From the NCBI GenBank assembly GCA_963205255.1, contig CAUJIK010000015.1:1-64000 (forward strand): a stretch of 64,000 nt of DNA, written 5' to 3'. Origin of the DNA: Pseudomonadota bacterium (GTDB lineage: Bacteria > Pseudomonadota > Gammaproteobacteria > Steroidobacterales > Steroidobacteraceae). The stretch's first letter is position 1; every line of letters begins with the position of its first letter. A program made the translations under genes and the position numbers. Below the pieces are notes generated by a model that was not told the DNA's origin, did no database searches, and was given only the letters and a program-made list of their open reading frames with translations. Shown here piece after piece: positions 11,125 through 28,946 of the stretch.

Positions 11125-12233
11125 ACAGCCCGATGGAAGAGACCGACGATTTCAAGGCCGACGCCGCAACGTCCGGTTTCAAGATCCGGCCATTGTTCAA
11201 GCTCATGGTCGAGCGCAAGGCCTCGGACCTGTTCTTCACCTCCAACGCCCCGATCAAGATCAAGATCGAAGGCCAGATCCACTCGATCAACAAGCAGGTG
11301 CTCACGCCCGAATACGTGCGCGCCGCCGCCTTCGGGCTCATGACGCCGGAGCAGATCGAATATTTCCAGCGCGAGCTGGAGATCGACTTCGCGCTGTCCG
11401 AGCCGGGACTGGGCCGTTTCCGCGTCGCGATCTTCTACCAGCGCGGCTATCCGGCCATGGTGATGCGCTACATCACCGCCGACATGCCGCGCCTGGACCA
11501 GCTCGGCGTGCCCGAGGTGCTCACCGACCTCGCGCGCCACAAGCGCGGCCTGATCCTCATGGTCGGCGCCACCGGCAGTGGCAAGTCCACCTCGCTCGCA
11601 GCGATGATCAACTACCGCAACGAGCATTTCTCGGATCACATCGTCACCATCGAGGATCCGATCGAATTCCTGCATACCAACAAGCGCTCCATCGTCAACC
11701 AGCGCGAAGTGGGGCTCGACACCAAGACCTACGCCCGCGCCCTGCGCGGCGTGATGCGCGCGGCGCCCGATGTCATCCTCATCGGCGAGATCCGCGACCG
11801 CGAAAGCATGGAGGCGGCCATCAACCTCTCCGGCACCGGCCATCTGGTGCTGGCGACGCTGCATGCGAACAACTGCGCCGAGACCATGGACCGCATCATC
11901 AACATGTTCCCGCATGAGCAGCACCCGCAGGTGCTGCTGGACATGTCGCAGTACCTGCGCGCCATCCTCGGCCAGCGCCTGGTGCCCGGCGTGGACGGCC
12001 GGCGCGTGGCGGCGGTGGAGATCATGATCAACACGCCGCACATCTCCGAGCTGATCCGCAAGGGCGACGTGGGCTCCATCAAGGAATCGATCCGCAACAG
12101 CGGCGAGAAGGGCATCCAGAGTTTCGATGCCGCGCTGGTGTCGCTCTACAAGGCCGGCCGCATCAGTCTGGAAGATGCGCTCGCCAATGCCGATTCGCGC
12201 ACGAATCTCGAGGCGACGATCAACTTCGGCTAG
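11121..12233 (+). CDS. Third tandem PilT/PilU family ATPase paralogue
   Basis: GTG start overlapping the pilU stop; 'GATGSGKSTSLAAMINYRN', 'GEIRDRESMEAAINLSGTGHLVLATLHANNCAETMDRIINMFP'. Confidence 0.9.
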   Translation: MNSPMEETDDFKADAATSGFKIRPLFKLMVERKASDLFFTSNAPIKIKIEGQIHSINKQVLTPEYVRAAAFGLMTPEQIEYFQRELEIDFALSEPGLGRFRVAIFYQRGYPAMVMRYITADMPRLDQLGVPEVLTDLARHKRGLILMVGATGSGKSTSLAAMINYRNEHFSDHIVTIEDPIEFLHTNKRSIVNQREVGLDTKTYARALRGVMRAAPDVILIGEIRDRESMEAAINLSGTGHLVLATLHANNCAETMDRIINMFPHEQHPQVLLDMSQYLRAILGQRLVPGVDGRRVAAVEIMINTPHISELIRKGDVGSIKESIRNSGEKGIQSFDAALVSLYKAGRISLEDALANADSRTNLEATINFG

Positions 12234-13525
12234 CGCCTGGCGTCGTCGTGCGCATCGTCGTGATGCGGCGCGTCCCACAGCACATGCGCATCGAGCAGCA
12301 CGCGCGCATGCGCGCGCAGCGCGGCCACCCGGGAAGATTCGGCCAGCTGCTGGGTTTCCAGCGCCGCGCGCCGCGAGTTGAACAGCGTGGTGCTGTCGAA
12401 TTCCCCAAGCGTGTAGCCGCGCGCCACGGCGTCGGCGGTTTCCTGTGCTTGCCGCAACGCGGCGGAAAGTTCCTGCCAGGCCTGCTGGCTCAGCCGCGCT
12501 TCGTGCACGGCCACGCGCGCCGCGGATTCGACGGCCAGCCGCGTTCCGGTGGCGGTGCTGGCCGCGGCGCGCGCCTGGCTGCGGCTCAGCGCCGCGCTGG
12601 CTGATCGGGCGCTTCCGCCCAGTGGCAGCGACATCCGCAGGCCGACGACCTTGCGGTTGCCATCCAGGTTGTCGCTGTACATCAGTCCGATGGTCGGGTC
12701 GGCAAGGCGCTCGCGCCCGGCCCGCTCGGCGGCAAGGCTCGCGGCGGCGGCGCGGGTGTCAGCCAGGGTGGTCTCGTGGTTGGCATCGATGATGCGCTCG
12801 ATCCACACCTCATCGTCTTCCGGCAGCCCGGCGGGCTCCGCAAGCTGTGCGGGCGCGGCGCTGGCCAGATGCGGGAACTCGCGTGTCAGCGCCTCTCTGG
12901 CCTGCATGGTCTGCCGCGCCGCTTCGCCGCGCATGGCCTGCAGACGCCGGGTCTCCGTCATGGCCAGCTGCAATTCCAGGCGCGCCGCATCGCCCGCCTC
13001 CACGCGCCGCTGCACCACCTGCTGCTGCGCGGTGAGCAGCGCCAGCTGGTCGTCCAGCAGGCGCAGCGCCTTCTCGGCGTCGAGCCAGCCGAACCACAGA
13101 TCCAGCAGTGTGCGGCTGGCCTCGTGCCAGTTGTCCAGATAGGCCAGCTCTCCGATCTCGCGCGCCTGTGCGCCGATGCGCCGGTCGAGCGAGGTTTTCC
13201 ACGGCCAGCGCACGCCGCGCTGCAGTCCGTATTCCTGTTCGGTGTACGGGATGCCGGCTGGGTCGGTGCGCCGCTGGCTCAGCGCGGAGACTTCCCACTC
13301 ATGCGTGCCGGCGCGCAGCTGGCGCTCCAGCGCCTGGCCCTCGGGGATGGATTCATGGGCGGCCTGCAATCGCGGCGCCTGCTCCAGTGCCTGCCGCACT
13401 TCGGCTTCCGGCGGCAGCGAAAGCGGCGGCGACGCGGCGGCCAGGACTGTCGGCAGCGCGAGCATGGCCCATGTGCACAGGGCTCTCACGCCAGCCTCCC
13501 GAAGCCGTTGACCGGTGTGCTCCAC
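12230..13525 (-). CDS. TolC family outer membrane efflux protein
   Basis: Signal peptide-like start, alpha-helical TolC-like repeats, start of an RND tripartite operon. Confidence 0.85.
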   Translation of the reverse strand: MEHTGQRLREAGVRALCTWAMLALPTVLAAASPPLSLPPEAEVRQALEQAPRLQAAHESIPEGQALERQLRAGTHEWEVSALSQRRTDPAGIPYTEQEYGLQRGVRWPWKTSLDRRIGAQAREIGELAYLDNWHEASRTLLDLWFGWLDAEKALRLLDDQLALLTAQQQVVQRRVEAGDAARLELQLAMTETRRLQAMRGEAARQTMQAREALTREFPHLASAAPAQLAEPAGLPEDDEVWIERIIDANHETTLADTRAAAASLAAERAGRERLADPTIGLMYSDNLDGNRKVVGLRMSLPLGGSARSASAALSRSQARAAASTATGTRLAVESAARVAVHEARLSQQAWQELSAALRQAQETADAVARGYTLGEFDSTTLFNSRRAALETQQLAESSRVAALRAHARVLLDAHVLWDAPHHDDAHDDARR

Positions 13526-13809
13526 CAGGCCACTTCGTCACTGGTTATCTGTTCGCGCAGCACGGCGAGCAGTGGTTCGCGATGTTCATCGAGCAGCGGC
13601 ACCTGCAGCACGCAGCGCCGCGCACGCCCCCGTACCTGCTCGATGCTCGAGTGCAGGCGCGTGCCCGCGCCGAAGCCCTCGGCGTCAAAGGTCGTAAGGC
13701 CGCTGACCCATTGCGGTTGCCCCTGCAGGATGTCGATCAGTTCCTCTTCGAGGTTTGCCGGGCCGCAGATGGTGAGCAGGCAATCGAAGGTTCTGGCGGC
13801 GGTCTCCAT
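13486..13809 (-). CDS. DUF3240 family protein
   Basis: 'LLTICGPANLEEELIDILQGQPQWVSGLTTFDAEGFG', 107 aa, between the TolC and RND genes. Confidence 0.75.
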   Translation of the reverse strand: METAARTFDCLLTICGPANLEEELIDILQGQPQWVSGLTTFDAEGFGAGTRLHSSIEQVRGRARRCVLQVPLLDEHREPLLAVLREQITSDEVAWWSTPVNGFGRLA

Positions 13810-16800
13810 CTACTTCTCCAGGCCGAAGCGGCGGAACAGCGCCGGCAGCAGCACCAGCGTCAGCGCGGTTGAACTGACCAGTCCGCCGATCACCACGATG
13901 GCCAGCGGCTTCTGGATCTCGGAGCCGGGGCCGGTGGCGATCAGCAGCGGCACCAGTCCGAAGGCGGCGATGCTGGCCGTCATCAGCACCGGGCGCAGGC
14001 GCCGCACCGCGCCGCCGCGCACCACCTCGTCCAGCGCCAGGCCGCGGGCGTGGAGCTGGTTGAAGTAGCTGATCATCACCAGGCCATTGAGCACGGCGAT
14101 GCCCATCAGGGCGATGAAGCCGACGGAGGCCGGCACCGAGAGATACTCGCCGGTCACCGCCAGCGCGAACACGCCGCCGACCAGCGCGAAGGGAATGTTC
14201 GCGAACACCAGCCCTGCCTGGCGCAGCGAACCCAGGGTGGCGAACAGCAGCAGGTAGATGAGCAGCAGGGCGACGGGCACCACCAGCATCAGCCGTTGCG
14301 CGGTGCGCTGCTGGTTCTCGAACTGGCCGCCCCAGGTGAGGCGGTAACCGCTGGGCAGCTCGATCTTCTCGCCGATGCGCGCCCTGGCTTCCTCGACGAA
14401 GCCCACCAGATCGCGGTCGCGCACATTGGCGCGCACCACCGTCATGCGCGTGCCGTTCTCGCGGTCCACCCGCACGGGGCCCGTGGTGCGTTCGAGGCGG
14501 GCCAGCCCGCTCAGCGGCAGGCTGCCGCCATCGTCCGCGGGCAGCGCCAGCTGCGCGAACAGCTCCGGCTGAAGTCCGTTCTCGTTGCCTCCCTGCGGCC
14601 CGCGCAGCAGCAGCGGCGAGCGGCGCCCCTGCTCGATGACGACGCCGGCAAGACGGCCCTCCAGCAATGCGCGCAGATCGTCCTGTACATCCTCGACGCT
14701 GAGGTCGGCCCGGCCGATCGCGGTGCGGTCCAGCGCAAGCTGCAGGTATTGCACGCCGGTGTTCTGCGTGGCGGTGACGTCCTCGCTGCCCTCCAGCGCT
14801 TCCAGCTCCACGGCGATGCCCGCTGCCAGTTCGTCCAGCACCGCAAGATCAGGTCCGAAGACTTTCACCGCCAGGTCGCCGCGCACGCCGGAGATCAGTT
14901 CGGACACGCGCATCTCGATGGGCTGCGTGAAGCTGGTGGCCACGCCGGGAAAGCGGTCGGTGACTTCACGTATGCGGTCGACCACCCAGGCCTTGTCGGC
15001 CTTGCGCCACTGGTTGCGCGGCTTGAGCTTGATGAACCCGTCGGTCTCGTTGGCGCCCATCGGGTCGAGGCCCAGCTCATCCGAGCCGAGCCGGGAGACG
15101 ATGCGCTCGATCTCCGGCACTTCGGCGAGCAGCACTTCCTGCATCTGCAGGTCCATCTCGGCCGAACGCGCCAGGCTGATGGACGGCAGCTTCTCGTGCT
15201 GTATCACCACGTCGCCTTCGTCCATGGTGGGCATGAAGGACTTGCCTATCATCAGGAACAGGCCGAGCGCGACGGCAAGCGTGACGCCCGCGGCGGCAAA
15301 CACGATTTTCTCGCGTGCCAGCGACCACTGGAGCAGCCGGCGGTAGCGCTGTTCGAGGATCTGCACCATCCGCGGCGGCTGGTGCGGCGTTCCCGCCAGC
15401 AGCCACGAGGCGGCCACCGGCACCACCGTCAGCGACAGCAGCAGCGAAGCCAGCAGCGCGAACACGATGGTCAGGGCCACCGGGCTGAAGAGCTTGCCCT
15501 CCAGCCCCTGCATGCTCAGCAGCGGCAGGAACACGATCGCGATGATGGCGATGCCGGCCGTGACCGGCGTCGCGACCTCGGCGGTGGCGCGATAGATCAC
15601 GTGCAGGCGCGACTGGGGCGGGCCGCTGTGCGTCTGTGCCTGGCGCGCCTCGATGTTCTCGACCACCACCACCGCGGCATCCACCAGCAGGCCGATGGCG
15701 ATGGCGAGGCCTCCCAGGGACATCAGGTCCGCCGACAAGCCATACAGATGCATGGCGAGGAAGGTGGCGACGGCGGCCAGCGGCAATATCAGCACCACGG
15801 CCGCCGCCGCGCGCAGGTTGCCGAGGAACAGGAACAGCAGGATCACCACCAGCACGGCCGCTTCAAGCAGCGCGCGGCTGACATTGCCGATGGCGCGCTC
15901 GACCAGTTCGCCGCGATCGTAGAAGGTGCTGATGGTCATGCCCGGCGGCAGCGTGGGCTCGATCTCGGCCAGCCGCTCGCGCACCCTCTCGACCACCTGC
16001 TGCGCGTTGGCGCCACGCAGGCCCAGCACCAGTCCTTCGACGGCCTCGCCCGTGCCCTGCTGGGTCACCATGCCATATCGCGTCAGGGCTCCGATGCGCA
16101 CCTCGGCGACTTCGCCCACGCGCACCACGCTGCCGCCGCGCCCCGCGATCACAATGGCGCGCACATCATCCAGCGTGCGCAGGTCCCCGTCGGCGCGCAC
16201 CAGCCAGGTCTCTTCGTTGTCCGGCAGGCGCCCGGCGCCGTCGCTGCGGTTGTTGCTTTCCAGCGCGGCGTGCAGCTGCCCGAGAGTGATGCCGCGGGCC
16301 GCGAGCGCGATGATGTCGGGCACCACCTCGAAGCTGCGCACGAAGCCGCCCAGCGCATTGACGTCGGCGACTCCGGGCAAGCCGCGCAATTGCGGGCGGA
16401 TGGTCCAGTCCAGCGCCGTGCGCTTCTCTTCGAGGGAGTGGGGCCCCTCCAGCGTGAACATGAACATGTCCGACAGCGGCGTGGAGATCGGCGCAAGGCC
16501 GCCGGTGGCCGTGGCCGGCAGACTGTCCTGCACGCCGGCCAGGCGTTCGCTGACCTGCTGGCGCGCCCAGTAGATATCGGTGCCGTCGACGAAATCCAGT
16601 GTGATGTCGGCGATGGCGTACTTGGAGCGCGACCTCAGGATGGTCTGGCCGGGAATGCCCAGCAGCTCCTGCTCGATGGGCGCCGCGATGCGCGTCTCCA
16701 CTTCCTCGGGAGTCATGCCGGGCGCCTTCATGATCACCTTCACCTGGGTGGTGGAGATGTCGGGAAAGGCGTCGATGGACAGCGAACGCGCGGCCCATAT

Positions 16801-16881
16801 GCCGACTCCGAGCAGCAGCAGGGTCAGTACTACTACCAGCAGGCGCTGCGACAGTGAGAGGGCGACGAGACGCGAGAGCAT
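13810..16881 (-). CDS. CusA/CzcA-type heavy-metal efflux RND permease
   Basis: 'MLSRLVALSLSQRLLVVVLTLLLLGVGIWAARSLSIDAFPDISTTQVKVIMKAPGMTPEEVETRIAAPIE', 'AIAIGLLVDAAVVVVENIEARQ'; start reset from 17058 to 16881. Confidence 0.93.
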   Translation of the reverse strand: MLSRLVALSLSQRLLVVVLTLLLLGVGIWAARSLSIDAFPDISTTQVKVIMKAPGMTPEEVETRIAAPIEQELLGIPGQTILRSRSKYAIADITLDFVDGTDIYWARQQVSERLAGVQDSLPATATGGLAPISTPLSDMFMFTLEGPHSLEEKRTALDWTIRPQLRGLPGVADVNALGGFVRSFEVVPDIIALAARGITLGQLHAALESNNRSDGAGRLPDNEETWLVRADGDLRTLDDVRAIVIAGRGGSVVRVGEVAEVRIGALTRYGMVTQQGTGEAVEGLVLGLRGANAQQVVERVRERLAEIEPTLPPGMTISTFYDRGELVERAIGNVSRALLEAAVLVVILLFLFLGNLRAAAAVVLILPLAAVATFLAMHLYGLSADLMSLGGLAIAIGLLVDAAVVVVENIEARQAQTHSGPPQSRLHVIYRATAEVATPVTAGIAIIAIVFLPLLSMQGLEGKLFSPVALTIVFALLASLLLSLTVVPVAASWLLAGTPHQPPRMVQILEQRYRRLLQWSLAREKIVFAAAGVTLAVALGLFLMIGKSFMPTMDEGDVVIQHEKLPSISLARSAEMDLQMQEVLLAEVPEIERIVSRLGSDELGLDPMGANETDGFIKLKPRNQWRKADKAWVVDRIREVTDRFPGVATSFTQPIEMRVSELISGVRGDLAVKVFGPDLAVLDELAAGIAVELEALEGSEDVTATQNTGVQYLQLALDRTAIGRADLSVEDVQDDLRALLEGRLAGVVIEQGRRSPLLLRGPQGGNENGLQPELFAQLALPADDGGSLPLSGLARLERTTGPVRVDRENGTRMTVVRANVRDRDLVGFVEEARARIGEKIELPSGYRLTWGGQFENQQRTAQRLMLVVPVALLLIYLLLFATLGSLRQAGLVFANIPFALVGGVFALAVTGEYLSVPASVGFIALMGIAVLNGLVMISYFNQLHARGLALDEVVRGGAVRRLRPVLMTASIAAFGLVPLLIATGPGSEIQKPLAIVVIGGLVSSTALTLVLLPALFRRFGLEK

Positions 16882-16885
16882 GATC

Positions 16886-18034
16886 TTACTCGGCTGCGGC
16901 CCCGAGCCCGTGCCACTGGCCCTTGAGGGCGGCAAGTCCCGTGGTGGCGATTTCGTTGCCGGGCTGCAGTGCGCCGCTGATCTGCGCGCTGCCGCCGGCG
17001 CGGCGTTCGACCTGCACCTCGACGGCGCGGACGCCGCCGGGTTCGCGCAGGAACACATAGTCGCGCCCGTCCTGGCGGATCAGCGCGCTTTCGGGTACGC
17101 GCAGCAGGCCGGTCGCGTGCGCGCGCGGGCTCAATGCCGCCTCCACGTTCTGGTTGGGCGCGAGGCATTGCGCCGAGCCAGGCAGCTCCGCCCGCACGGT
17201 CACGGTCTGGCTGTGATCGTCGAGCCGCAGCGAGGTGGCGATCACCTGGCCTGGGTCCGGGCAGCCTTCCACCGTCACGCGATCGCCGCTGGATATGCGC
17301 CGCGCCTGTTCGCGCGTGGCCTGCAGCTCGAGCCACAGCCGGTCGAGCGTTGCGATCTGGTAGAGCACATCGCCGGCGTTCATGGCCTGTCCGGGCCGGG
17401 CGTCCTGGTGCAGCACGGTGCCGGCGCGGCGCGCGCGCAGGGTCAGCGACGCGGAAATATCGGTCGCGCCGCGGATGCGGTCGACGGCGCCGTCGGTGAG
17501 TCCGGCCAGGCGCAGCAGCTGCCGCTGCTCGCGCAGCCGCGCCTCGGCGTCATCCCGCTCGGCGCGGGCTTCTTCCAGGCGGTTGCGGGCGATGATGCCG
17601 TCGGCGTAGAGGCTCTCGTCGCGGGTCACGCGCGCGCGCAGCACGTCGGCGCGGGCGCGGGCGCTGACCAGCTCACGCTGCATGGCCAGCACCTCGGCGC
17701 TGTGCAGGCGCGCCAGCGGCTGCCCGGCGCGCACCGTCTCGCCCGGATTGACCAGCAGGGCCTCGACGCGTCCGGCCGCTGGTGCAAGCACCACATCCAG
17801 CGCGGTGTTGGGGATGAGGGTGCGGCCGACGAGCCGCAATGCGGCGCCTCCCGGTGTGTCCGGCGTGGCGTCGCTTGCGCTCTGCACGGGCGCGAAGGCG
17901 ACGCGCGCGGCCTGCAATTGCGCCTCGGACAGGCGCAATCCGTTCTCCGCGGCCCCGGCGGCGCCTGCGCCGGCCAGCAGCGCGAGCAGGGTGGCCATCA
18001 GGGAAATGCTGATGATGGGGCTGGAAGAGAGCAT
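16886..18034 (-). CDS. Efflux RND periplasmic adaptor (CusB/CzcB-like)
   Basis: 'GRVEALLVNPGETVRAGQPLARLHSAEVLAMQREL', 'VLHQDARPGQAMNAGDVLYQIATLDRLWLEL'. Confidence 0.9.
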   Translation of the reverse strand: MLSSSPIISISLMATLLALLAGAGAAGAAENGLRLSEAQLQAARVAFAPVQSASDATPDTPGGAALRLVGRTLIPNTALDVVLAPAAGRVEALLVNPGETVRAGQPLARLHSAEVLAMQRELVSARARADVLRARVTRDESLYADGIIARNRLEEARAERDDAEARLREQRQLLRLAGLTDGAVDRIRGATDISASLTLRARRAGTVLHQDARPGQAMNAGDVLYQIATLDRLWLELQATREQARRISSGDRVTVEGCPDPGQVIATSLRLDDHSQTVTVRAELPGSAQCLAPNQNVEAALSPRAHATGLLRVPESALIRQDGRDYVFLREPGGVRAVEVQVERRAGGSAQISGALQPGNEIATTGLAALKGQWHGLGAAAE

Positions 18035-18059
18035 AGACGGTGCAAGTTATTCGATAGGG

Positions 18060-18076
18060 CTTAAGCTTCCATTAAG
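18060..18076. promoter_or_regulatory. Candidate PmrA/QseB-type response-regulator box
   Basis: CTTAAG-N5-ATTAAG direct repeat with 11-bp period between the divergent efflux operon and the RR gene; near match to YTTAAK-N5-YTTAAK. Confidence 0.55.
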
Positions 18077-18101
18077 GAGCGGGCCTGGCCCGCTGTATGT
18101 G

Positions 18102-18791
18102 ATGGGGAAGTCGGGCGTGCGTGTATTGCTGGTCGAGGATGATGCGCAGCTGGGGCAGGCCCTGAAGACCGGCCTCGCGCAGCGCGGCCATGGGGTGGAC
18201 TGGGTGCGGGACGGCGTTGCGGCCGAGCTTGCGGCGCGCGCCGGGCACTACGAGGCGCTGCTGCTGGACATCGGCCTGCCGCGCCAGGATGGTCTGGTCG
18301 TGCTGCGGCGGCTGCGCGCGGCGGGCTTCGAGGCTCCTATCCTCATGGTGACCGCGCGTGACGAGATCGGCGATCGCGTGCAGGGTCTGGACAGCGGCGC
18401 CGACGATTTCATCGTCAAGCCGGTCGATCTGGATGAGCTGGCCGCGCGGCTGCGCGCCGCGCATCGCCGCTCGATGGGCCGATCGCAGTCGCTGCTGATT
18501 CACGGTGAGCTGCGCGTCGATCCGGCCGCGCGGCAGACGACCCTGGGCGGGCGCGGCATCACGCTCACGGCGCGTGAGTTCACGTTGCTGCAATACCTGC
18601 TGGAGCACGCCGGCCAGGTGCGCTCCCGGCATCAGTTGCAGGAATCGCTCTATGGCTGGGGAGACGAGATCGAGAGCAATGCCATCGAAGTGCACATCCA
18701 CAACCTGCGGCGCAAGCTGGGGCGCGAGCTGATCCGCACCGTGCACGGACAGGGCTACGTCATCGACGCGCCGCCCGCGGAGCCGGCATGA
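18102..18791 (+). CDS. OmpR/PmrA-family response regulator
   Basis: 'VRVLLVEDDAQLGQALKTGLAQRGHGVDWVRDG', 'LLLDIGLPRQDGLVVLRRLR', C-terminal winged-helix 'LTAREFTLLQYLLEHAGQV'. Confidence 0.94.
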   Translation: MGKSGVRVLLVEDDAQLGQALKTGLAQRGHGVDWVRDGVAAELAARAGHYEALLLDIGLPRQDGLVVLRRLRAAGFEAPILMVTARDEIGDRVQGLDSGADDFIVKPVDLDELAARLRAAHRRSMGRSQSLLIHGELRVDPAARQTTLGGRGITLTAREFTLLQYLLEHAGQVRSRHQLQESLYGWGDEIESNAIEVHIHNLRRKLGRELIRTVHGQGYVIDAPPAEPA

Positions 18792-20743
18792 GCCGGTCGC
18801 GGCCCTGGTCGCTGCGCCGGCGCCTGCTGGCCTGGCTTGCCGGCACGGCGGCGCTGCTGTTCATTGCCGATGCCTCGCAGAACTATCTGGCCACCCGCGC
18901 CGCGAGCAGCCAGCTGCTGGACGATTCCATGCGCGAGACGGCCGGGCTGATGCTGCAGCTGGCGCATCACGAGCTCGCCGAGCATGGGCAGATGCTGGGC
19001 ATCGAGCTGCTGCGCGCCGAGACGAACCCCGGCCCGTATGGGTTCCAGTTCCAGATCTGGACCCGCGACATGCAGGCGGGGTACCGGTCGAACGCCCTGT
19101 CGGACAAGCCGCTGATGTCTTTCGAGGCAGATGGCTTCGGCTGGGCGGATGTCAACGGAGAGCGCTGGCGCACCTATGCCGCGTGGAGCGATGATCGCTC
19201 CCTGCAAATCCAGATCGCCCAGCCGCAGTCGCCGCGCAAGGCGCTCAACAAGGCGGCGCTGGTGCACGCCGCGATGGGCGCGCTGCTGTTGCTGGCGCTG
19301 ACCACCGCGCTCATCGTGTGGATACTGGCGCGCACCATCTGGCCGCTGCAGACCACGGCACGCTCGGTCAGCCAGCGCGGCGAGCACGACCTGCGGCCGA
19401 TTGCGGCGCCGGATGCACCGGAAGAAGTGCTGCCGCTGGTGGCGGCGCTGAACCGGCTGCTGGAGCGGATCAGCCAGACTCTGCAGCGCGAGCGCCGTTT
19501 CACGGCCGATGCGGCGCATGAGCTGCGCACGCCGCTGGCGGCGATCCGGGCCAATGCCCAGGTGCTCGTGGGCGCGCAGGATCAGGCCGAGCGCGAGATC
19601 ACCAGCCGCAATCTCATCGTCAGTGTGGATCGCAGCGCGCGGCTGGTCGAGCAGCTGCTGTCGCTGGCGCGCGCCGATTCGACCTTGCGGCCCGAGGCGG
19701 TGCAGCAGATCGACCTTGCTGAACTTGCCGCCTCCGCGCTGGATGCGCAGCGCGTGCTGGCGCAGGAGCGCGGGATCACGCTGCTCCGTGAAGGTGGTCA
19801 TGCCTCGATGCAGGGTGATCGGGCGCTGCTGGCGGTATTGCTGCGCAACCTGCTGGAAAATGCGCTGCGCCACACGCCGCGCGGCGGGGTGGTGACGGTG
19901 CGGACCCGCAGTGCGCAGGAGCAGGCCACCATCGAGGTCATCGATACCGGTGATGGCGTGCAACCCGAGGAGCGCGAGCGGATCTTCAGGCGTTTCCACC
20001 GCGCGCCGCAGGCCGCGTCGGGCGGCAGCGGGCTGGGGCTTTCCATCTGCGCGCGCATTGCCGAACTGCACAATGCGCGCATCGATGTGCTGGAGGGTGA
20101 GTCCGGTCGTGGCGCCTGTTTCCGCGTCGTGTTTCCCGCGCCGCCTGCGAGATCGCACGGGACGGGCGCGCTGGCGCCCGTCATTGCCGCTGTCATCCTT
20201 GCGCTGTCATGGGTGGGCCCGGCGCAGCCCGCGCATGCCGCCGGGTCTGCGTTGCTGGCCGGACGCGTGCTCAGGGTCATAGATGGCGATACGGTCGATG
20301 TGCGGCTCGACAGCGGCCGCATCCGTGTGCGGTTGCAGGGCATCGATGCGCCGGAGCGCGATCAGCCCGGCGGTGCCGAAGCCACGGGCTTTCTCGCCCG
20401 GCGCCTGCAGGATCGCGACGTGCTGCTGAAGCCGGTTTCCCAGGATCAGTACGACCGGCTGGTGGCGATCATCTATGTCGCCGATGTGAACATGAACAGC
20501 GAACTGGTGCGCGAGGGCCATGCCTGGGCGTACCGGCGTTACATGCGGCGCGAGGAACGGGAGCTGTGCCGGCTGGAACATGAAGCCCGGCGTTCGGGCC
20601 GGGGGTTGTGGCAGCCGCGCTCGGCGCCGGCGCGCGCGCCCTGGGAGCATCGCGCCACCGGTGGTCGTGGTCCCTTCACCGATTTCGCGCGCAGCGAGCT
20701 GCGCGATTGTCTGCGCGCCATCGGGCGCCGGGCGGCTTCCTGA
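18788..20743 (+). CDS. Sensor histidine kinase fused in frame to a C-terminal thermonuclease (SNase-like) domain
   Basis: Kinase boxes 'FTADAAHELRTPLAAI', 'LLRNLLENALRHTP', 'GSGLGLSI'; then 'VIAAVILALSWVGPAQPAHAAG' and SNase 'GRVLRVIDGDTVDVRL..IRVRLQGIDAPERDQP...YDRLVAIIYV'. No stop codon between. Confidence 0.85.
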   Translation: MSRSRPWSLRRRLLAWLAGTAALLFIADASQNYLATRAASSQLLDDSMRETAGLMLQLAHHELAEHGQMLGIELLRAETNPGPYGFQFQIWTRDMQAGYRSNALSDKPLMSFEADGFGWADVNGERWRTYAAWSDDRSLQIQIAQPQSPRKALNKAALVHAAMGALLLLALTTALIVWILARTIWPLQTTARSVSQRGEHDLRPIAAPDAPEEVLPLVAALNRLLERISQTLQRERRFTADAAHELRTPLAAIRANAQVLVGAQDQAEREITSRNLIVSVDRSARLVEQLLSLARADSTLRPEAVQQIDLAELAASALDAQRVLAQERGITLLREGGHASMQGDRALLAVLLRNLLENALRHTPRGGVVTVRTRSAQEQATIEVIDTGDGVQPEERERIFRRFHRAPQAASGGSGLGLSICARIAELHNARIDVLEGESGRGACFRVVFPAPPARSHGTGALAPVIAAVILALSWVGPAQPAHAAGSALLAGRVLRVIDGDTVDVRLDSGRIRVRLQGIDAPERDQPGGAEATGFLARRLQDRDVLLKPVSQDQYDRLVAIIYVADVNMNSELVREGHAWAYRRYMRREERELCRLEHEARRSGRGLWQPRSAPARAPWEHRATGGRGPFTDFARSELRDCLRAIGRRAAS

Positions 20744-22575
20744 TGAAGCGTCTGCTGCTGCTGGGCGCGATGGCCTGCCTGCAGGCCTGCGGCACGCTGG
20801 GCAGCCGTGGCGAGGAAGGTGAGCAGGAGCAGGTCGAGGGCGAGGCCGCTCCTCTTTCCTTTCAGGTGCGGATCGTCAGCGAGGATCGCCGCATCGCGAG
20901 CCATCTGCGGCAGCACATGGACATCCGGCGTTTCAGGAGCTTTCCCGATCTGCAGGCCAGCGAACTGCGCCGCCTGATGGGCGAGGCCGAGACCAACGCG
21001 CGCGACCTGCTTGCCGCACTGGGCTACTTCCAGCCGCGGCTCGATGTGCGCATGGAGCAGCCGCAGGAAGGCGCCGATACGCCGCTGCGCGTTGTCGTCG
21101 AGGTCGAGCCTGGCGAGGTCGCGAAAGTGGCCGGTCATGAGATCGGTTTCGCCCAGCCCATGGCGAGCGATCCGCGGACCGAAGAACTGCGCCGTGTCAT
21201 CCGCGAGGGCTGGCTGTTGCGCGAGGGCAGGCCTTTCACCCAGGAGGCATGGGATGCCGCCAAGGCCGGCGGACTGCGCACGCTGCAGCGCGACCGCTAC
21301 CCCGTGGCCCGCATCGCCGACAGCCAGGCCCGCGTCAATGCGGACACGCTGCTTGCCGATCTGCGCATCACCTATGACGCCGGCCCCGCCTACCGCTTCG
21401 GCGCGCTGGATCTGCGCGGCGTTGAGCGTTACGACGCCGCGGGCATCCGCAACATCGCGCGCATTCCCACCGGTCGCGATTACAGCGAGAGCTCGTTGCT
21501 GGATGCGCAGCAGCGGCTGGTCAGCAGCGGCTATTTCGATTCGGCGTTCCTGATGCTCGATCCGGACGAGGCCGATCCGGATCACGCCACCGTGATCGCG
21601 CAGCTGCGCGAGGCGCAATACCAGAAGGTGGTGTTCGGTCTGGGGTTCAGCACCGACACCGGCCCGCGCGCGTCGGTGGATCACACGCACAACAAGATGT
21701 GGCCTTTCGGCTGGCGCGCGCTCAACCAGATCGCGCTGGGCACCAGCACGCAGTCGCTGGCCACCCGCTGGACCGCCATGCCCGGATCCGCCGGCTGGGC
21801 CTGGTATACGGGCGCCGCACTGGAGCGTTCCGACTACGGTGATTTTCGCGCCCGCAGCGTGTCGCTCACGGGCGGGCGCATGAAGTCGGGCGAGCACATC
21901 GACCGTCGTTACTATGTGCAGTACGACCTGGGCACCACCGAGGGCAGTGGCGCGCCGGGCGGCAGCTCTTCGATCCTCGGCAACTATGCGTGGACCGGCC
22001 GCTACTTCAACGACCGTACCAATCCCGCTTCGGGATACGGCCTCGCCGCGGAGGCCGGGCTGGGCTTCACTTTGTCGCCGCGCCAGGAGCCCTTCCTGCG
22101 TTTCAGCGCGCGCGCGCTGCGCTTCTGGCCTTTCGGTGGCAGCAATGAGGCGGGCCGGCGCAACCGCCTGGCGCTGCGTGCGGACCTGGGCGCGATCCAT
22201 GCGGCCGCCGGTGTGAACATTCCGGTGCGACTGCTGTTTCTCACCGGCGGCGACACCACGGTGCGTGGCTATGGCTACCAGAGCATCGGCACGCGTCTCG
22301 ACGACGGCAGCATCTACGGAGCCCGTTACATGGGATCGGGCAGTGTGGAGTGGCAGCGCCCGGTGAAGCTGTTCGGTGATGCCGCGAGCTTCGAGCACAC
22401 CACTTTCGTCGATGTGGGCACGGCAACCGACACCCTGAGCCAGTACAAGCTGTATACCGGCGTCGGCACCGGCATGCGCTGGAGCAGCCCGGTCGGGCCG
22501 TTGCAGCTGGATGTGGCCTATGGCCTGCAGGACCGGCAGGTGCGCCTGCATCTGCGCATGGGCTTCCAGTTCTGA
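20743..22575 (+). CDS. tamA: Omp85-family TamA-like outer membrane protein
   Basis: POTRA-like N-terminus and barrel end 'SSPVGPLQLDVAYGLQDRQVRLHLRMGFQF'; followed by tamB. Confidence 0.9.
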   Translation: MKRLLLLGAMACLQACGTLGSRGEEGEQEQVEGEAAPLSFQVRIVSEDRRIASHLRQHMDIRRFRSFPDLQASELRRLMGEAETNARDLLAALGYFQPRLDVRMEQPQEGADTPLRVVVEVEPGEVAKVAGHEIGFAQPMASDPRTEELRRVIREGWLLREGRPFTQEAWDAAKAGGLRTLQRDRYPVARIADSQARVNADTLLADLRITYDAGPAYRFGALDLRGVERYDAAGIRNIARIPTGRDYSESSLLDAQQRLVSSGYFDSAFLMLDPDEADPDHATVIAQLREAQYQKVVFGLGFSTDTGPRASVDHTHNKMWPFGWRALNQIALGTSTQSLATRWTAMPGSAGWAWYTGAALERSDYGDFRARSVSLTGGRMKSGEHIDRRYYVQYDLGTTEGSGAPGGSSSILGNYAWTGRYFNDRTNPASGYGLAAEAGLGFTLSPRQEPFLRFSARALRFWPFGGSNEAGRRNRLALRADLGAIHAAAGVNIPVRLLFLTGGDTTVRGYGYQSIGTRLDDGSIYGARYMGSGSVEWQRPVKLFGDAASFEHTTFVDVGTATDTLSQYKLYTGVGTGMRWSSPVGPLQLDVAYGLQDRQVRLHLRMGFQF

Positions 22576-22580
22576 ACGCC

Positions 22581-25500
22581 ATGGATCAAGCCACCACAAC
22601 ATCCGTCTCCCAGCCGCCGCCGCGCCTGTTCGGTCGGCGTCTGCTGCGCGGGCTGCTGGTCGCGCTGGCGGTGTTGCTGGTGCTGCTGGCGGGGCTGGCC
22701 TGGTGGGCGTCCACCGAAGGTTCGCTGGCGCGTGCGCTGGGGTTGGCGCAGCGCTTCCTGCCGCCGGAGCAGCGGCTCGAATACCGCGATGTCAGCGGGT
22801 CCATCAGCCGTGGCGGCCATGTTGGGCATCTGCAATGGAGCCGCCCGGGCACGACGCTCGCCATCGATGATCTGCGACTGAGCTGGTCGCTGTGGCGGCT
22901 GGCTGGTGGCGAACTTCAGGTGCGGATGCTGCATGCCGGCAATGTGCATCTGTGTCTCTTGCCGCAACCGCAAGAGCCGGATGCGAAGCCTTTCGTCATG
23001 CCGCGGCAGTTGTCATTGCCGCTGCGCGTGACGCTGCCGTTGGCCGTCGACCGTCTGCAGGTGGATACCGTGGATGCGGCAGGTCTTGCGGGTAGCCAGC
23101 TCATCGAGCGCATTGCCGCGGGCTTCGCCTACGACGGCGCGCAGCATGCATTGATGCTGCGCAGTCTGCGGCATGGCCAGAGCAGCCTGCGGGCGCAATG
23201 GCTGCTGCATGCCACGGAACTCACCGTGGCGGGAGAGATTCACGCCTCGCTGCGCAATCTCGTGGCGCAGGCGCCGCTGGCCATGGATGCGCACCTCACT
23301 GTGAACGGCGGCCTCGCCGGTGGCGATGCGGCAAGGCTCGATGCGAGGCTCGAGGCGCAGGAGCAGCAGGGTGATTCCCCGGCGCGGCTGCATGCCGAGG
23401 CAACGGTGCATCCCTGGCGCGCGCAGCCCTTGCAGCGGCTGGAGCTCGAGGCCACTGCTCTCGATGCGCATGCCTTCCACAGCGCGGCGCCCATCACTGC
23501 GTTCGGTGGCCGCGCCAATATGCGGCCGGTTGCCGGTGGCATCGATGCGTGGGACGTGATGCTGGAATTCGCCAACGAGGAGGCCGGCACCTGGGAACGT
23601 CAGCGCATGCCGCTGCGCACCGTCACGGCGCAGGCGCGCCTGTCGGATATGCAGCTCGCTGTGCGGCAGGCAGAGGCCGTGATGGCGGGTTCTCCCGAGG
23701 GTCGGGTGTCGCTTGCAGGGAATGTGTCACTGCGCCAGCCCACACAATCCACCTTGAGCGTGATGCTGCGGGAGCTCGACCTGTGGCCATGGATGCAGGG
23801 CCTGCCGCGCACCGCGCTCGGCGGCGAGGCTTCCATCGCGCCGCTGGCCGCGGAGGAGGGCTGGCAACTGCGCACCGATGTCGCCAATGCCGCGGCCGGT
23901 CCGCTGGATCGCGATCGTCTGCCGCTGGAGCGTCTGCTGGCCGAAGCCCGGTTCACGGCCGCGCGCTGGCAGGCGCAGTTGCTGCAACTGCAGATGGGAG
24001 CGGGGCGGGCGCAGTTGCAGGGCGAATTCCAGCCTGGGTCGCAGTCGCTCGATGTGCGCGGCGAGTTGCGACAGCTGCCTTTGCGACAGATTCACGGACG
24101 GCTTGCCGCCAGCGCGGATTCCGCGCTGTCCGGCACATTGACGGCGCGCGGTGATCTGCGCGAGGGGCTGGCTTTCGATGCCGACATGAGCAGCAGCGCG
24201 GGCGCGGCGGCGGCGCGAGGCTCATGGGAGATCCGCGCCCTGAGGGCAAAGGGCTCGTGGTCGCCGTCGCGGCTGGCCGTGGAGCGGCTGCATCTGGATG
24301 CCTTCGGCGCGCAAGTCGATGGCGAGAACATCGAAGCGGCGCTGCCGGAATTCGATGCGATCCAGGGGCGCCTCGCGGCCACGGCGCCGGGCATGACGAT
24401 GGACGCGGATGCCAGCATGCAGGCGCGCTCGGGCGGCGGGAATCTGTCGCTGCGGCTGGCGTCGGCCCAGCAGGTGGTTTCCTGGCTGCGCGGCCTGCCG
24501 CTGATGGGCGGGCGGCTGGATGATCTTCAGGCGCGCGGCAGCGCCAGCCTGAGTGCCGCATGGCAGGGCGGCTGGCGGCAGTGGATGGACGCCGTCACTC
24601 GTCCAGCCGACCAGCCCCAGCTGCATGTCGACGTCAACGCGCAGTTGCAGTCGCTGCGGCTCGAGCTGCCTTCGGCGCAGGCAGGCCAGCCGGCGCAGAG
24701 CTTCGGCGCCGATCGTCTCGATGTCACGCTGCGGGGCAATCCGGCGGCGGCGGATCTGGTGGTCGATGGCGATCTGCGCGCCGCCGACACGCGTGCATTG
24801 CTCGACATGCATCTGCTGTCGAAGCAGGTCGCGGGCACGGCGGGCCCGCCGCTGTGGAATGTGGGTGTCGTGCGACTGGCGGCATCCGCGGCGCTTCCCG
24901 GCCAGTCGGGGCCGTGGCAGCTGAGTGTCAGCGAAGGGCTTCAGCTCAATGCGCGCCCTGGAGAAACCTTCGAGCTCGACGCCAGCGCCGGTCAGGCCAG
25001 GCTGATTCCGCCGGGCAGTGTTTCTCCCGCTGGGGACGCGCTGGAGCTGGCCTGGCAGCCGCTCCACTGGCAGCGTGCGGTGGATGGCGCATCGCGGCTG
25101 CGCACCAGCGGCACGTTGAGCGGCCTGCGCCCGGGATGGCTGGATGCGCTGCTGGCGCCGATGAACAAGGCGCCGCTGGCCGAAGCCGGGCTCTACACCG
25201 ACCTTGTGATGAGCGGCGAATGGAATGTACAGATGACCGATCGCCTGGATGTGCACGCGCATCTGAAGCGCGACAGCGGCGATCTGTGGCTGGGCCAGCC
25301 CGACATCGATCCGGCTGCCGGTGATGCGGTGCGGGCCGGCGAACGCGTGCGCCGCGAAGGCGTTGCCGCGGGCATCCGCGCGCTGGATGTGAAGGTGCGG
25401 TCCGAAGGCGATGACGTGGCGCTGTCCCTGGACTGGAATACCGAGCGTGCCGGCGTGATCACCGCCGATGTGCGCACCGAGCTGACGCGGCAAGCCGGTG

Positions 25501-26867
25501 GCTGGAGACTGGCGGACACCGCGCCGTTGTCTGGCGGTCTGCGCGCGCATCTGCAGGACCTGGGCCTGTGGGGATTCTTCGCTCCTCCGGGCTGGCGCGT
25601 GCAGGGCGCGCTCGGCGCCGATATCCAGCTCGCCGGCACTGTGCAGTCGCCGCAGCTGCAGGGCGGTGTCGAAGGCAGCGGTCTCAATATCCGTTCGGTG
25701 CTCGACGGCGTTGATCTGCACGACGGCGTGCTGCGCGGCACCTTGCAGGGTCAACGGTTCGAGATCGCCGAACTCACCTTGCAGGGCGGCACCGGCAGCG
25801 AGGCTTATGTGCGCGGCCTTTCCGGCAACCGCACGCAGCCGCCTTCCGAACGCGGCCACATGACGGCTCGCGGCAGCATCGACTGGAGTGGTGTGGAAGA
25901 GGCGCAATCCGGCGAGTCCGGCATCGCCCTGGATCTCAGCGCCAGCCTGCAGAAGATGCAGGTGCTGGTGCGCAATGATCGTCAGCTGAGCCTGAGTGGC
26001 GATCTCTCTGCCGGATTGCAGCAGGGGAAGCTGACGGTGCGCGGCGATCTCGTGGTGGATCGCGCGGCCATCATGCTGCCGGAAGCCGGCGCGCCCACCC
26101 TGGGTGATGACGTGGTCGTGGTGCGCGACAGTGATCTGGAGGGCGGCGCTGCCTCCGGGGCGCGCGGCGAGCTCCAGACCGCAAGGCCCATGGATCTGGA
26201 AATCCGGCTCGACCTGGGGCACGATCTTGCGCTGCAGGGCCATGGCATCACCACGCGCCTGGAAGGCGAGCTGACGGTGAGCAGCGCCGCGAGCGGCAAT
26301 GATCCGTTCCGTGTCGTCGGCGAGGTGCGCACCGATGCGGGCCGCTTCCGTGCCTGGGGGCAGGCGCTGAACGTGGAAACCGGCGTGGTGCTGTTCAACG
26401 GGCCTTATTCCAATCCGTCGCTGAACCTTCTGGCCATACGCCCGGAGATCGCCGTGCGCGCCGGTGTGCGCGTCACCGGCACATTGAGCGCGCCGCGCGT
26501 GCTGCTGTATTCGGAGCCGGACATGCCCGAGTCCGAGAAGCTCTCATGGGTGGTGCTGGGCCGTGCCGCGGCCACCACGGGCGCGGAGGGCGCTTCGATG
26601 CAGCAGGCCGCGCTGGGCCTCCTGGCCGGTGGCGTGGGCAGCAGCCTGGCTGGAGGCCTGGGGCTGGACGAGCTGGGTCTGGGCGATTCCAGCGTGTCGA
26701 TCGGCAAGCGCGTTTCCGACCAGCTTTACGTCACCTACGAAGCCGGGCTTTCGGGCGCCGCCAGCACGCTCTATGTCTTCTACGACATCACGCGGCGCTT
26801 CACGGTGCGCGGCCAGACTGGAAAGGCCAGCGCCGTGGACATCATCTACACGATCACCTACGACTGA
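22581..26867 (+). CDS. tamB: Translocation and assembly module protein TamB (1428 aa)
   Basis: C-terminal TamB/DUF490 region 'PYSNPSLNLLAIRPEIAVRAGVRVTGTLSAPRVLLYSEPDMPESEKLSWVVLGRA...ISVGK-like'; follows tamA. Confidence 0.93.
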   Translation: MDQATTTSVSQPPPRLFGRRLLRGLLVALAVLLVLLAGLAWWASTEGSLARALGLAQRFLPPEQRLEYRDVSGSISRGGHVGHLQWSRPGTTLAIDDLRLSWSLWRLAGGELQVRMLHAGNVHLCLLPQPQEPDAKPFVMPRQLSLPLRVTLPLAVDRLQVDTVDAAGLAGSQLIERIAAGFAYDGAQHALMLRSLRHGQSSLRAQWLLHATELTVAGEIHASLRNLVAQAPLAMDAHLTVNGGLAGGDAARLDARLEAQEQQGDSPARLHAEATVHPWRAQPLQRLELEATALDAHAFHSAAPITAFGGRANMRPVAGGIDAWDVMLEFANEEAGTWERQRMPLRTVTAQARLSDMQLAVRQAEAVMAGSPEGRVSLAGNVSLRQPTQSTLSVMLRELDLWPWMQGLPRTALGGEASIAPLAAEEGWQLRTDVANAAAGPLDRDRLPLERLLAEARFTAARWQAQLLQLQMGAGRAQLQGEFQPGSQSLDVRGELRQLPLRQIHGRLAASADSALSGTLTARGDLREGLAFDADMSSSAGAAAARGSWEIRALRAKGSWSPSRLAVERLHLDAFGAQVDGENIEAALPEFDAIQGRLAATAPGMTMDADASMQARSGGGNLSLRLASAQQVVSWLRGLPLMGGRLDDLQARGSASLSAAWQGGWRQWMDAVTRPADQPQLHVDVNAQLQSLRLELPSAQAGQPAQSFGADRLDVTLRGNPAAADLVVDGDLRAADTRALLDMHLLSKQVAGTAGPPLWNVGVVRLAASAALPGQSGPWQLSVSEGLQLNARPGETFELDASAGQARLIPPGSVSPAGDALELAWQPLHWQRAVDGASRLRTSGTLSGLRPGWLDALLAPMNKAPLAEAGLYTDLVMSGEWNVQMTDRLDVHAHLKRDSGDLWLGQPDIDPAAGDAVRAGERVRREGVAAGIRALDVKVRSEGDDVALSLDWNTERAGVITADVRTELTRQAGGWRLADTAPLSGGLRAHLQDLGLWGFFAPPGWRVQGALGADIQLAGTVQSPQLQGGVEGSGLNIRSVLDGVDLHDGVLRGTLQGQRFEIAELTLQGGTGSEAYVRGLSGNRTQPPSERGHMTARGSIDWSGVEEAQSGESGIALDLSASLQKMQVLVRNDRQLSLSGDLSAGLQQGKLTVRGDLVVDRAAIMLPEAGAPTLGDDVVVVRDSDLEGGAASGARGELQTARPMDLEIRLDLGHDLALQGHGITTRLEGELTVSSAASGNDPFRVVGEVRTDAGRFRAWGQALNVETGVVLFNGPYSNPSLNLLAIRPEIAVRAGVRVTGTLSAPRVLLYSEPDMPESEKLSWVVLGRAAATTGAEGASMQQAALGLLAGGVGSSLAGGLGLDELGLGDSSVSIGKRVSDQLYVTYEAGLSGAASTLYVFYDITRRFTVRGQTGKASAVDIIYTITYD

Positions 26868-26870
26868 CGA

Positions 26871-26905
26871 GATGCCCGGCCGCGCCTTGCGCGCGGTCGG
26901 GCATC
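26871..26905. terminator. Hairpin terminator between convergent tamB and DUF6152 gene
   Basis: GATGCCCGGCCGCGC-CTTGC-GCGCGGTCGGGCATC, 15-bp arms with one G.T position. Confidence 0.8.
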
Positions 26906-26928
26906 TTCAGTCGACTCCGTCGCCGCGG

Positions 26929-27321
26929 CTAGTTGCCGGAGTTACGGATCAGTGGCTCGCCGTTGACCGTGGCGCGCACGAAGCTGCCGCCGGGCGAACC
27001 ATCCTTCAGCGGATGCATCGTCATCACGATCTTGTCGCCGGGCTTCAGCGTGGTCCTGCTCCAGCCCTGACGGCGCAGCCCATTGGGGCTGCCGCCCTCG
27101 ATGCTGTACTCCACGATCTTGCCGTCCGCGCCGGGGACGTTGATCTGGATCCAGATGTGAGGGTTCGTCCACTGGAACTCCTTCACCTCGCCCTCGATCG
27201 TCTGTTCCTTCGAGTTGTCGAACATCGCGAAGGAATGATGGGCTTGGACCGTGGCGGCCAAAGCCAGCGTTGCTCCAAGCAGGCCTAGTTTGCGCAACAT
27301 TTTCCGGTTCTCCTGGTTCAT
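26929..27321 (-). CDS. DUF6152 family exported protein
   Basis: 'ATVQAHHSFAMFDNSKEQTIEGEVKEFQWTNPHIWIQINVPGADGKIVEYSIEGGSPNGLRRQGWSRTTLKPGDKIVMTMHPLKDGSPGG'. Confidence 0.82.
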   Translation of the reverse strand: MNQENRKMLRKLGLLGATLALAATVQAHHSFAMFDNSKEQTIEGEVKEFQWTNPHIWIQINVPGADGKIVEYSIEGGSPNGLRRQGWSRTTLKPGDKIVMTMHPLKDGSPGGSFVRATVNGEPLIRNSGN

Positions 27322-27403
27322 CCGATATCTGCGCCAGAATTGACGCCCCCCAACACGCACATGCCGGCTGTCCCTGAGCCGGCCTCAGCAAAAATAATTA
27401 TCA

Positions 27404-27423
27404 TCAACAATCATTATTGTTGA
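27404..27423. promoter_or_regulatory. Palindrome in AT-rich divergent promoter region
   Basis: TCAACAAT-CATT-ATTGTTGA in a ~60 bp AT-rich island (27391-27450). Confidence 0.5.
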
Positions 27424-27485
27424 CTATCATTTTATATTAAATTATATCTGATCCACAAGAACTGGAAACGTCAATTGGGGGTGGC

Positions 27486-28241
27486 ATGTCGGCACTGATG
27501 TGTCTGCACAGGCAGGTAATTGCCGTGCTTGTTGGCTGTCTGGCGAATGTCCTGGTGCTGGCCGCAACGCCGGACGCCCACGGAAATCGTGATGTGCGCG
27601 TGGCCGCCTCCGTGCCCGACATTTCCGGTGTCTGGTTCATGCGCGGCTACGACCGTCGCATCCGCCCCATGGACGGGTCGGAAACGCCCTGGCAGCCGTG
27701 GTCGAAAGCGGAGTTCGACCGTCGCGCCGACGCCGAAAAGGCGGGCGCGCCGCTGCTGGATCCCACCGCCGCCTGTCTGCCCAGCGGCATGCCGCGGCTG
27801 ATCGCCGCTCCTTATCCACTCGAGATCGTGCAGACGCCGGATGCGACGGTGTTCCTGTACGAGACGCATCATCTGTTCCGCGTCATTCACATGAACGGCA
27901 AGCACCCGAAGAAGGTGAAGCCCTCGTACATGGGCCATTCAATCGGTCATTGGGAAGGCGACACGCTCGTTGTCGACACCATCGGCCTGACGCAGATCAC
28001 ACAGATCGACGAGGCGGGCACCATGCACTCGGACGCACTGCGCGTCACCGAGCGTATCCGCAAGGTGGATGCCGAGACGCTCGAGACGGTTTTCACCATC
28101 GATGATCCCAAGGCCTTCACCAAGCCCTGGACGGCGGTGCGCACCTTCAAGTGGCGGCCGGACGTGCGTCTGTTCGAGTACGTGTGTGAGGAAAACAACC
28201 GCAACGCGCCCGATGCCAAGGGCGAGCTGAGGCGCCTGTGA
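27486..28241 (+). CDS. Uncharacterised exported protein, paralogue A1 ('PDISGVW...GHWEGDTLVVDT' family)
   Basis: Signal peptide; 'DPTAACLPSGMPRLI', 'GHWEGDTLVVDTIGL', 'VTERIRKVDAETLETVFTIDDPKAFTKPWT'. Confidence 0.82.
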   Translation: MSALMCLHRQVIAVLVGCLANVLVLAATPDAHGNRDVRVAASVPDISGVWFMRGYDRRIRPMDGSETPWQPWSKAEFDRRADAEKAGAPLLDPTAACLPSGMPRLIAAPYPLEIVQTPDATVFLYETHHLFRVIHMNGKHPKKVKPSYMGHSIGHWEGDTLVVDTIGLTQITQIDEAGTMHSDALRVTERIRKVDAETLETVFTIDDPKAFTKPWTAVRTFKWRPDVRLFEYVCEENNRNAPDAKGELRRL

Positions 28242-28939
28242 TGCTGCTGCGCTGTCTGGTCGCTGCCGTCCTGATCGGCGGAAGTTCCTTTGCACAGGTC
28301 GGCGCGGCGGAGCCGCCCGCGCAACTGGCCGGTACCTGGAAGCCGGTCCGCAACTTCGGTGCGAGTTTGCGCACCGTGGACGGCAAGGCGCCGCCGCTGA
28401 ACGCGGAGGGCCGTTCGCTGCACGAGCAGCGGCGCAAGGTCGCCCGCACGGAGGATCCGGTGCGCCAGTGCCTGCGTCCCGGCACGCCTCGCATACTGTT
28501 CCAGAACCGACCTCTGATGGTTCTGCAGACGCCGCGCAAGATCACGTTCGTCCACGAATTCCAGCACGTGCTGCGGCACGTGTATCTCAATGAGCCGCTG
28601 CCGCCGGCGGAAGAGCTCGAGCCGCTGTGGGGCGGCACTGCCGCCGGGCGCTGGGACGGCGCAACCCTGGTCGTGGAGACCATCGGCTTCCACGACGGGC
28701 TGTGGCTGGACGCCACGGGGCTGCCGCAATCGGCCAATGCGCGCATCACCGAGCGCGCCCGTCTCGTGGGCGACACGCTCGAGATCCTGGTCACCATCGA
28801 CGATCCGGAGAACTACACGGCGCCGTGGCAGACGCGCGCTACCTATCGACGGGCGGACGGCACAGTGCTTCAGGAGCATATCTGCGCTGAAACGCTGCTC
28901 GACCCGGTGTTGAGACGGACATTTCTGAAAAACAAGTAA
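28241..28939 (+). CDS. Uncharacterised exported protein, paralogue B1
   Basis: Overlaps the A1 stop; 'QLAGTWKP', 'CLRPGTPRIL', 'FVHEFQHVLRHVYLNEP', 'GRWDGATLVVETIGF', 'ITERARLVGDTLEILVTIDDPENYTAPWQT'. Confidence 0.82.
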   Translation: MLLRCLVAAVLIGGSSFAQVGAAEPPAQLAGTWKPVRNFGASLRTVDGKAPPLNAEGRSLHEQRRKVARTEDPVRQCLRPGTPRILFQNRPLMVLQTPRKITFVHEFQHVLRHVYLNEPLPPAEELEPLWGGTAAGRWDGATLVVETIGFHDGLWLDATGLPQSANARITERARLVGDTLEILVTIDDPENYTAPWQTRATYRRADGTVLQEHICAETLLDPVLRRTFLKNK

Positions 28940-28946
28940 GGGGGGC

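Follow-up and report, generated by a model that had tools for sequence, protein, structure and literature searches.

According to our analysis, a single open reading frame at 18788–20743 on the forward strand of the window (the whole stretch of DNA analysed, 64,000 nucleotides) joins a sensor histidine kinase to a thermonuclease-like (SNase) domain. We explain it as a lineage-specific fusion made as one precursor, in which the signal peptide of the nuclease has become a third transmembrane segment (TM3) and signal peptidase I probably cuts at AHA|AG, a reading to which we give slightly better than even chances. The two genes were probably joined recently. One frame, intact motifs, broken synteny and, in the searches made, the status of a singleton characterize the locus.

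The frame (651 aa; ATG at 18788, TGA at 20741–20743) contains zero internal stops over its 651 codons, and Pfam placed three domains in it, all above their cut-offs: HisKA (residues 235–298, 1.5e-13), HATPase_c (residues 343–452, 2.1e-26) and SNase (PF00565; residues 513–609, 3.4e-21, 76.1 bits against a cut-off of 21). Chance is ruled out by far for both the kinase and the nuclease domains. An earlier note on this DNA had reported the open frame with both parts in phase, and its coordinates proved exact. The kinase boxes that it had described as intact are all in place, namely H (HELRTP, 244–249), N (NLLENA, 354–359), G1 (DTGDGV, 386–391), F (IFRRFHR, 399–405) and G2 (GSGLGLS, 413–419). The nuclease likewise keeps the residues named there, in IDGDT (498–502), VRLQGIDAPE (514–523) and YDRLVA (555–560); its D, R, D, E and R, which we take to be the catalytic ones, stand opposite the active-site residues of solved thermonucleases in PDB alignments.

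Hydropathy revealed three hydrophobic segments in the protein (13–31, 163–181 and 461–479). Domains, alignment, hydropathy and Foldseek define a kinase portion at 18788–20143 (residues 1–452), with TM1 at 13–31, a predicted periplasmic sensor, TM2 at 163–181, and the DHp and CA domains; Foldseek listed histidine kinases as its matches, the CusS catalytic core among them. A linker follows at 20144–20170 (residues 453–461; alignment and hydropathy), with arginine and without acidic residues. According to hydropathy and homologues, 20171–20239 (residues 462–484, LAPVIAAVILALSWVGPAQPAHA) would be TM3, formerly the hydrophobic core and c-region of a signal peptide, with cleavage predicted before AG. 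Arginines, but no acidic residues, stand before the third hydrophobic segment, LAPVIAAVILALSWVG, and PAQPAHA|AG comes after it; the note had likewise described a hydrophobic segment ending in AQPAHA|AG ahead of the SNase domain. The core of the segment, ~15 residues, has the length of a signal peptide. The remainder, at 20240–20740 (residues 485–651), comprises the SNase domain with a C-terminal tail, matched to thermonucleases by sequence (Pfam PF00565, PDB alignments). In an AlphaFold2 model built from the window protein and 28 locus proteins (mean pLDDT 86.9), both the kinase and the nuclease domains are folded and residues 485–651 are mostly above 90, while the stretches below 50 include 456–464 and 476–485, on either side of the third hydrophobic segment. 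The computed mass of the whole fusion is 71.7 kDa, not the ~75 kDa expected earlier; cleavage would leave a kinase fragment of ~53 kDa and release a nuclease part of 18.8 kDa, where ~20 kDa had been foreseen.

The kinase has HisKA and HATPase_c with all five boxes, and the QseC/PmrB-type layout is present, with two hydrophobic segments flanking the predicted periplasmic sensor and an OmpR-type regulator upstream. Scores for the named NCBIfam subfamilies were all below cut-off (QseC 231.8/475, PmrB 201.3/314, cztS_silS_copS 188.9/292.55), and by sequence the fused kinase fits the broad QseC/PmrB type with no named member. It shares with QseC/PmrB/CzcS-type kinases the DHp and CA domains, a sensor predicted to lie in the periplasm between two transmembrane segments, an OmpR-type partner and an adjoining RND efflux operon; however, in the relatives found the CA domain is the last part, whereas the window kinase goes on through a third transmembrane segment into the nuclease. 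Exported SNase homologues (PF00565) have the same catalytic residues and a signal-peptide-like segment before the domain, but the window nuclease lacks a good start codon of its own and its N-terminus is joined to the kinase.

The neighbouring genes place the fusion in a two-component locus. An OmpR-type response regulator (QseB/PmrA/CzcR-like; NCBIfam PmrA/QseB on its body) lies at 18102–18791 on the forward strand, starts with MGKSGVRVLL at 18102, and ends in an overlap (ATGA) with the start codon of the kinase. On the reverse strand, in divergent orientation to this regulator–kinase pair, are a CusA/CzcA-family RND efflux pump (13810–17058; TIGR00914 above cut-off) and a CzcB-like RND periplasmic adaptor (16886–18034; TIGR01730 above cut-off). 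Downstream on the forward strand, a TamA/Omp85-family protein (20743–22575; NCBIfam NF047950, below its cut-off), whose start overlaps the fusion stop (TGATG), is followed by a TamB-family protein (22581–26867; NCBIfam NF047952, below its cut-off). The TamA-family protein starts with MKRLLLLGAMACLQACGT, which is lipobox-like, and is the second TamA-like gene in the genome (paralogue G000:C11:49009-50673, 26% identity). Farther on, within 26500–31556, GC drops to ~0.59–0.61 around 26,500–28,000, beside a DUF6152 gene and with a TonB-dependent receptor beyond it; this DNA was possibly acquired. A 2000-residue, ChpA-like frame with Hpt, CheA-type kinase, CheW and receiver domains occupies 44764–50763.

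Comparison with two genomes of the same genus shows where the parts were joined. In G001, the apparent kinase orthologue (49% identity) is a stand-alone protein that stops where the window kinase part ends, at residue 452; the aligned C-termini read RVFFPVAA, followed by the stop, in G001 vs RVVFPAPPAR in the window. The gene order of G001 is that of the window, with an outer-membrane factor, a DUF3240-like gene, CusA, CusB and divergent regulator and kinase genes, the first two labels being read from the sequences alone. This arrangement is common to two species of the genus (L166, G001:C20; window 12233–18791), and the synteny breaks at the fusion point. In G007, the SNase (57% identical) is preceded by a metallo-beta-lactamase-fold-like gene and starts with an ATG and a signal peptide of its own; tamA (67% identical, the only close relative of the window gene within the genus) follows an unrelated gene on a different contig, so that the two sites are unrelated to each other. 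The order kinase, SNase, tamA, tamB was found only in this genome. In alignment, the stand-alone nuclease homologues have a methionine and a signal peptide at the place of the window TM3, and of these signal peptides the hydrophobic core and the AxA site persist in the window.

Based on these comparisons, we suggest that a rearrangement put an exported SNase gene, together with tamA–tamB, directly behind the kinase gene of a regulator–kinase pair opposite a CusA-type efflux operon, and that the kinase stop and the nuclease start were both lost in this event. We infer that the fused frame is expressed as one polypeptide, in which TM1 and TM2 would seat the kinase in the usual way, presumably in control of the efflux pump. 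The old signal peptide would act as an N-in/C-out TM3 sending the nuclease to the periplasm, and cleavage after AHA by signal peptidase I is probable; it would free a putatively active, basic nuclease of ~19 kDa, and the kinase would be left carrying TM3 as its C-terminal tail. In this scheme the CA domain would be tied by a linker of ~10 residues to a membrane helix even after cleavage, and kinase function may be hindered, which tells against our reading. A precedent for such a precursor is FbcH (fbcH) of Bradyrhizobium japonicum, the cytochrome b/c1 precursor, which is cut at an internal signal sequence. There too, one precursor holds a polytopic membrane protein together with an exported one, which are parted at that sequence, and by sequence and hydropathy the window protein has the corresponding feature, a signal-like sequence with an AxA site after a membrane protein; however, FbcH unites conserved respiratory subunits, whereas the functions here are unrelated and the case is limited to a single genome. 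A search of the open-access literature for a cytochrome b/c1 polyprotein precedent returned none.

A search for the same architecture in orthologues, as the earlier note had proposed, yielded no second kinase–SNase fusion among ~1,280 genomes and 80 contig loci, and this speaks against our reading. The family, order, class and phylum sets overlap. SNase relatives were present in 31 of the 217 genomes of the family and in 95 of the 397 of the order; for PF00565 the counts are at least 204 of 369 in the class and at least 149 of 229 in the phylum, and in these two sets fusions were sought among the stronger matches listed. Each listed SNase frame longer than 500 aa and several shorter ones were inspected, and none was fused to a kinase. 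The 80 loci came from a one-genome-per-species scan with exact peptide patterns, which reaches close relatives only, and none of them carried the fusion. Eleven long SNase frames considered as candidates (G743, G504, G592, G615, G347, G140, G333, G308, G971, G840 and G808) were rejected as kinase fusions: in nine, no kinase matched the SNase frame, and the stretches fetched for G504 and G592 held no frame matching the kinase or the nuclease query. Another candidate, an 866 aa open frame in the unrelated genome G879, was rejected since kinase and SNase are near each other but in separate frames; at that locus (L191, G879:C67), regulator, kinase, an oligoribonuclease-like gene and SNase stand in a row as separate genes. 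The earlier note, which knew of no described kinase–thermonuclease fusion, agrees with our search of the open-access literature, most subscription papers being outside its scope, which found none; PMC7641849 mentions both terms, but apart.

An assembly or sequencing artefact, in which a misjoin or a collapsed stretch united two genes, would account for the synteny break at the junction and for the separate genes in relatives, and the assembly, in 119 contigs, is a draft; we nevertheless consider it quite improbable. The earlier note had reasoned that separate proteins in all orthologues and an indel at this place would speak against the fusion. The proteins are indeed separate in all relatives found, and the G001 kinase stops as expected, but an indel is not supported, as there is no stop codon in any frame at 20101–20279 and no ATG in any frame at 20101–20208, later ATGs (e.g., 20209) being out of the nuclease frame. 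The kinase naturally ends at about residue 452, and therefore one indel would not restore two ordinary genes: the kinase would read on in a different long open frame, and the nuclease would still lack a well-supported start. We thus rejected a single frameshift as the explanation. A repeat-driven misjoin was rejected as well, as the junction DNA is present in a single copy in the genome. The window is free of N, GC content and the codon-position pattern continue across the junction, the latter normal through to the end, and for either side of the junction the genus holds close relatives. The absence of a proper start also bears on the idea of a nested gene, whereby the nuclease would be made mainly from an internal start as its own pre-protein. 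GTG 20129 would yield a complete signal peptide including Arg and His, yet it has no ribosome site (anti-SD energy only -1.1); CTG 20171 reaches -6.7 kcal/mol, but this is at chance level, as 18% of random window positions are at -5 or lower, and CTG starts are rare. Ahead of the hydrophobic core of the nuclease, its frame offers no ATG, GTG or TTG that has a ribosome site, and with the kinase stop absent the fused product would still be made. This option, the third raised in the earlier note, is left with poor starts and is very improbable.

Two further explanations accept the fusion itself. The protein might remain uncut, with TM3 as an anchor that tethers the nuclease next to the sensor on the periplasmic side of the membrane and may couple the two. 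AHA|AG does follow an n-region far larger than that of a normal signal peptide, and S. aureus Nuc2, a membrane-anchored SNase with its anchor at the N-terminus, offers a loose parallel (PMC3994088); it is likewise held on the membrane by an N-terminal segment and faces outward, but its anchor is short, compared with a whole sensor kinase here, and the bacterial envelope is another one. However, the short TM3 core and the textbook AxA site favor cleavage, and the nuclease relatives have ordinary signal peptides, so that we regard the uncut form as rather unlikely. The fusion could also be a recent neutral or damaging accident with a non-functional kinase or nuclease, its frame open through youth or translational coupling to tamA only. 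Its singleton status in all searches and the tight tether of the CA domain are in line with this, and the TGATG overlap with tamA alone could hold the frame open; yet the kinase and nuclease motifs are all intact and the coding composition is normal up to the end, and an accident seems unlikely to us. A fusion with cleavage, our preferred reading, unites the first two options of the earlier note, which are compatible and both fit; it draws on a single three-domain frame whose kinase is an apparent orthologue of the stand-alone kinase of G001. The observation made in the note is confirmed and its interpretation partly supported: the fusion stands as one open frame, while for sensing tied to the nuclease the fusion itself is the sole support.

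Overall, the locus presents known parts in a new arrangement, of modest interest given its singleton status. Architecture conservation was looked for and not found, and selection on the fusion and a dedicated function are therefore unproven; a singleton says little yet on any conserved system. The intact catalytic residues suggest that both parts still worked at least until recently. It is doubtful that this is a working kinase–nuclease polyprotein, in which covalent fusion would link an envelope or metal signal to the amount or placement of a nuclease in the periplasm, at a 1:1 ratio set at birth. If the protein is confirmed, nature would here have attached an exported enzyme, by way of an ancestral signal peptide, to a signalling kinase, and one could test cleanly whether the catalytic domain of a sensor kinase can bear being anchored in the membrane. 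It would further illustrate how a gene for a membrane protein and one for an exported protein can become a single precursor where they are joined at a signal peptide.
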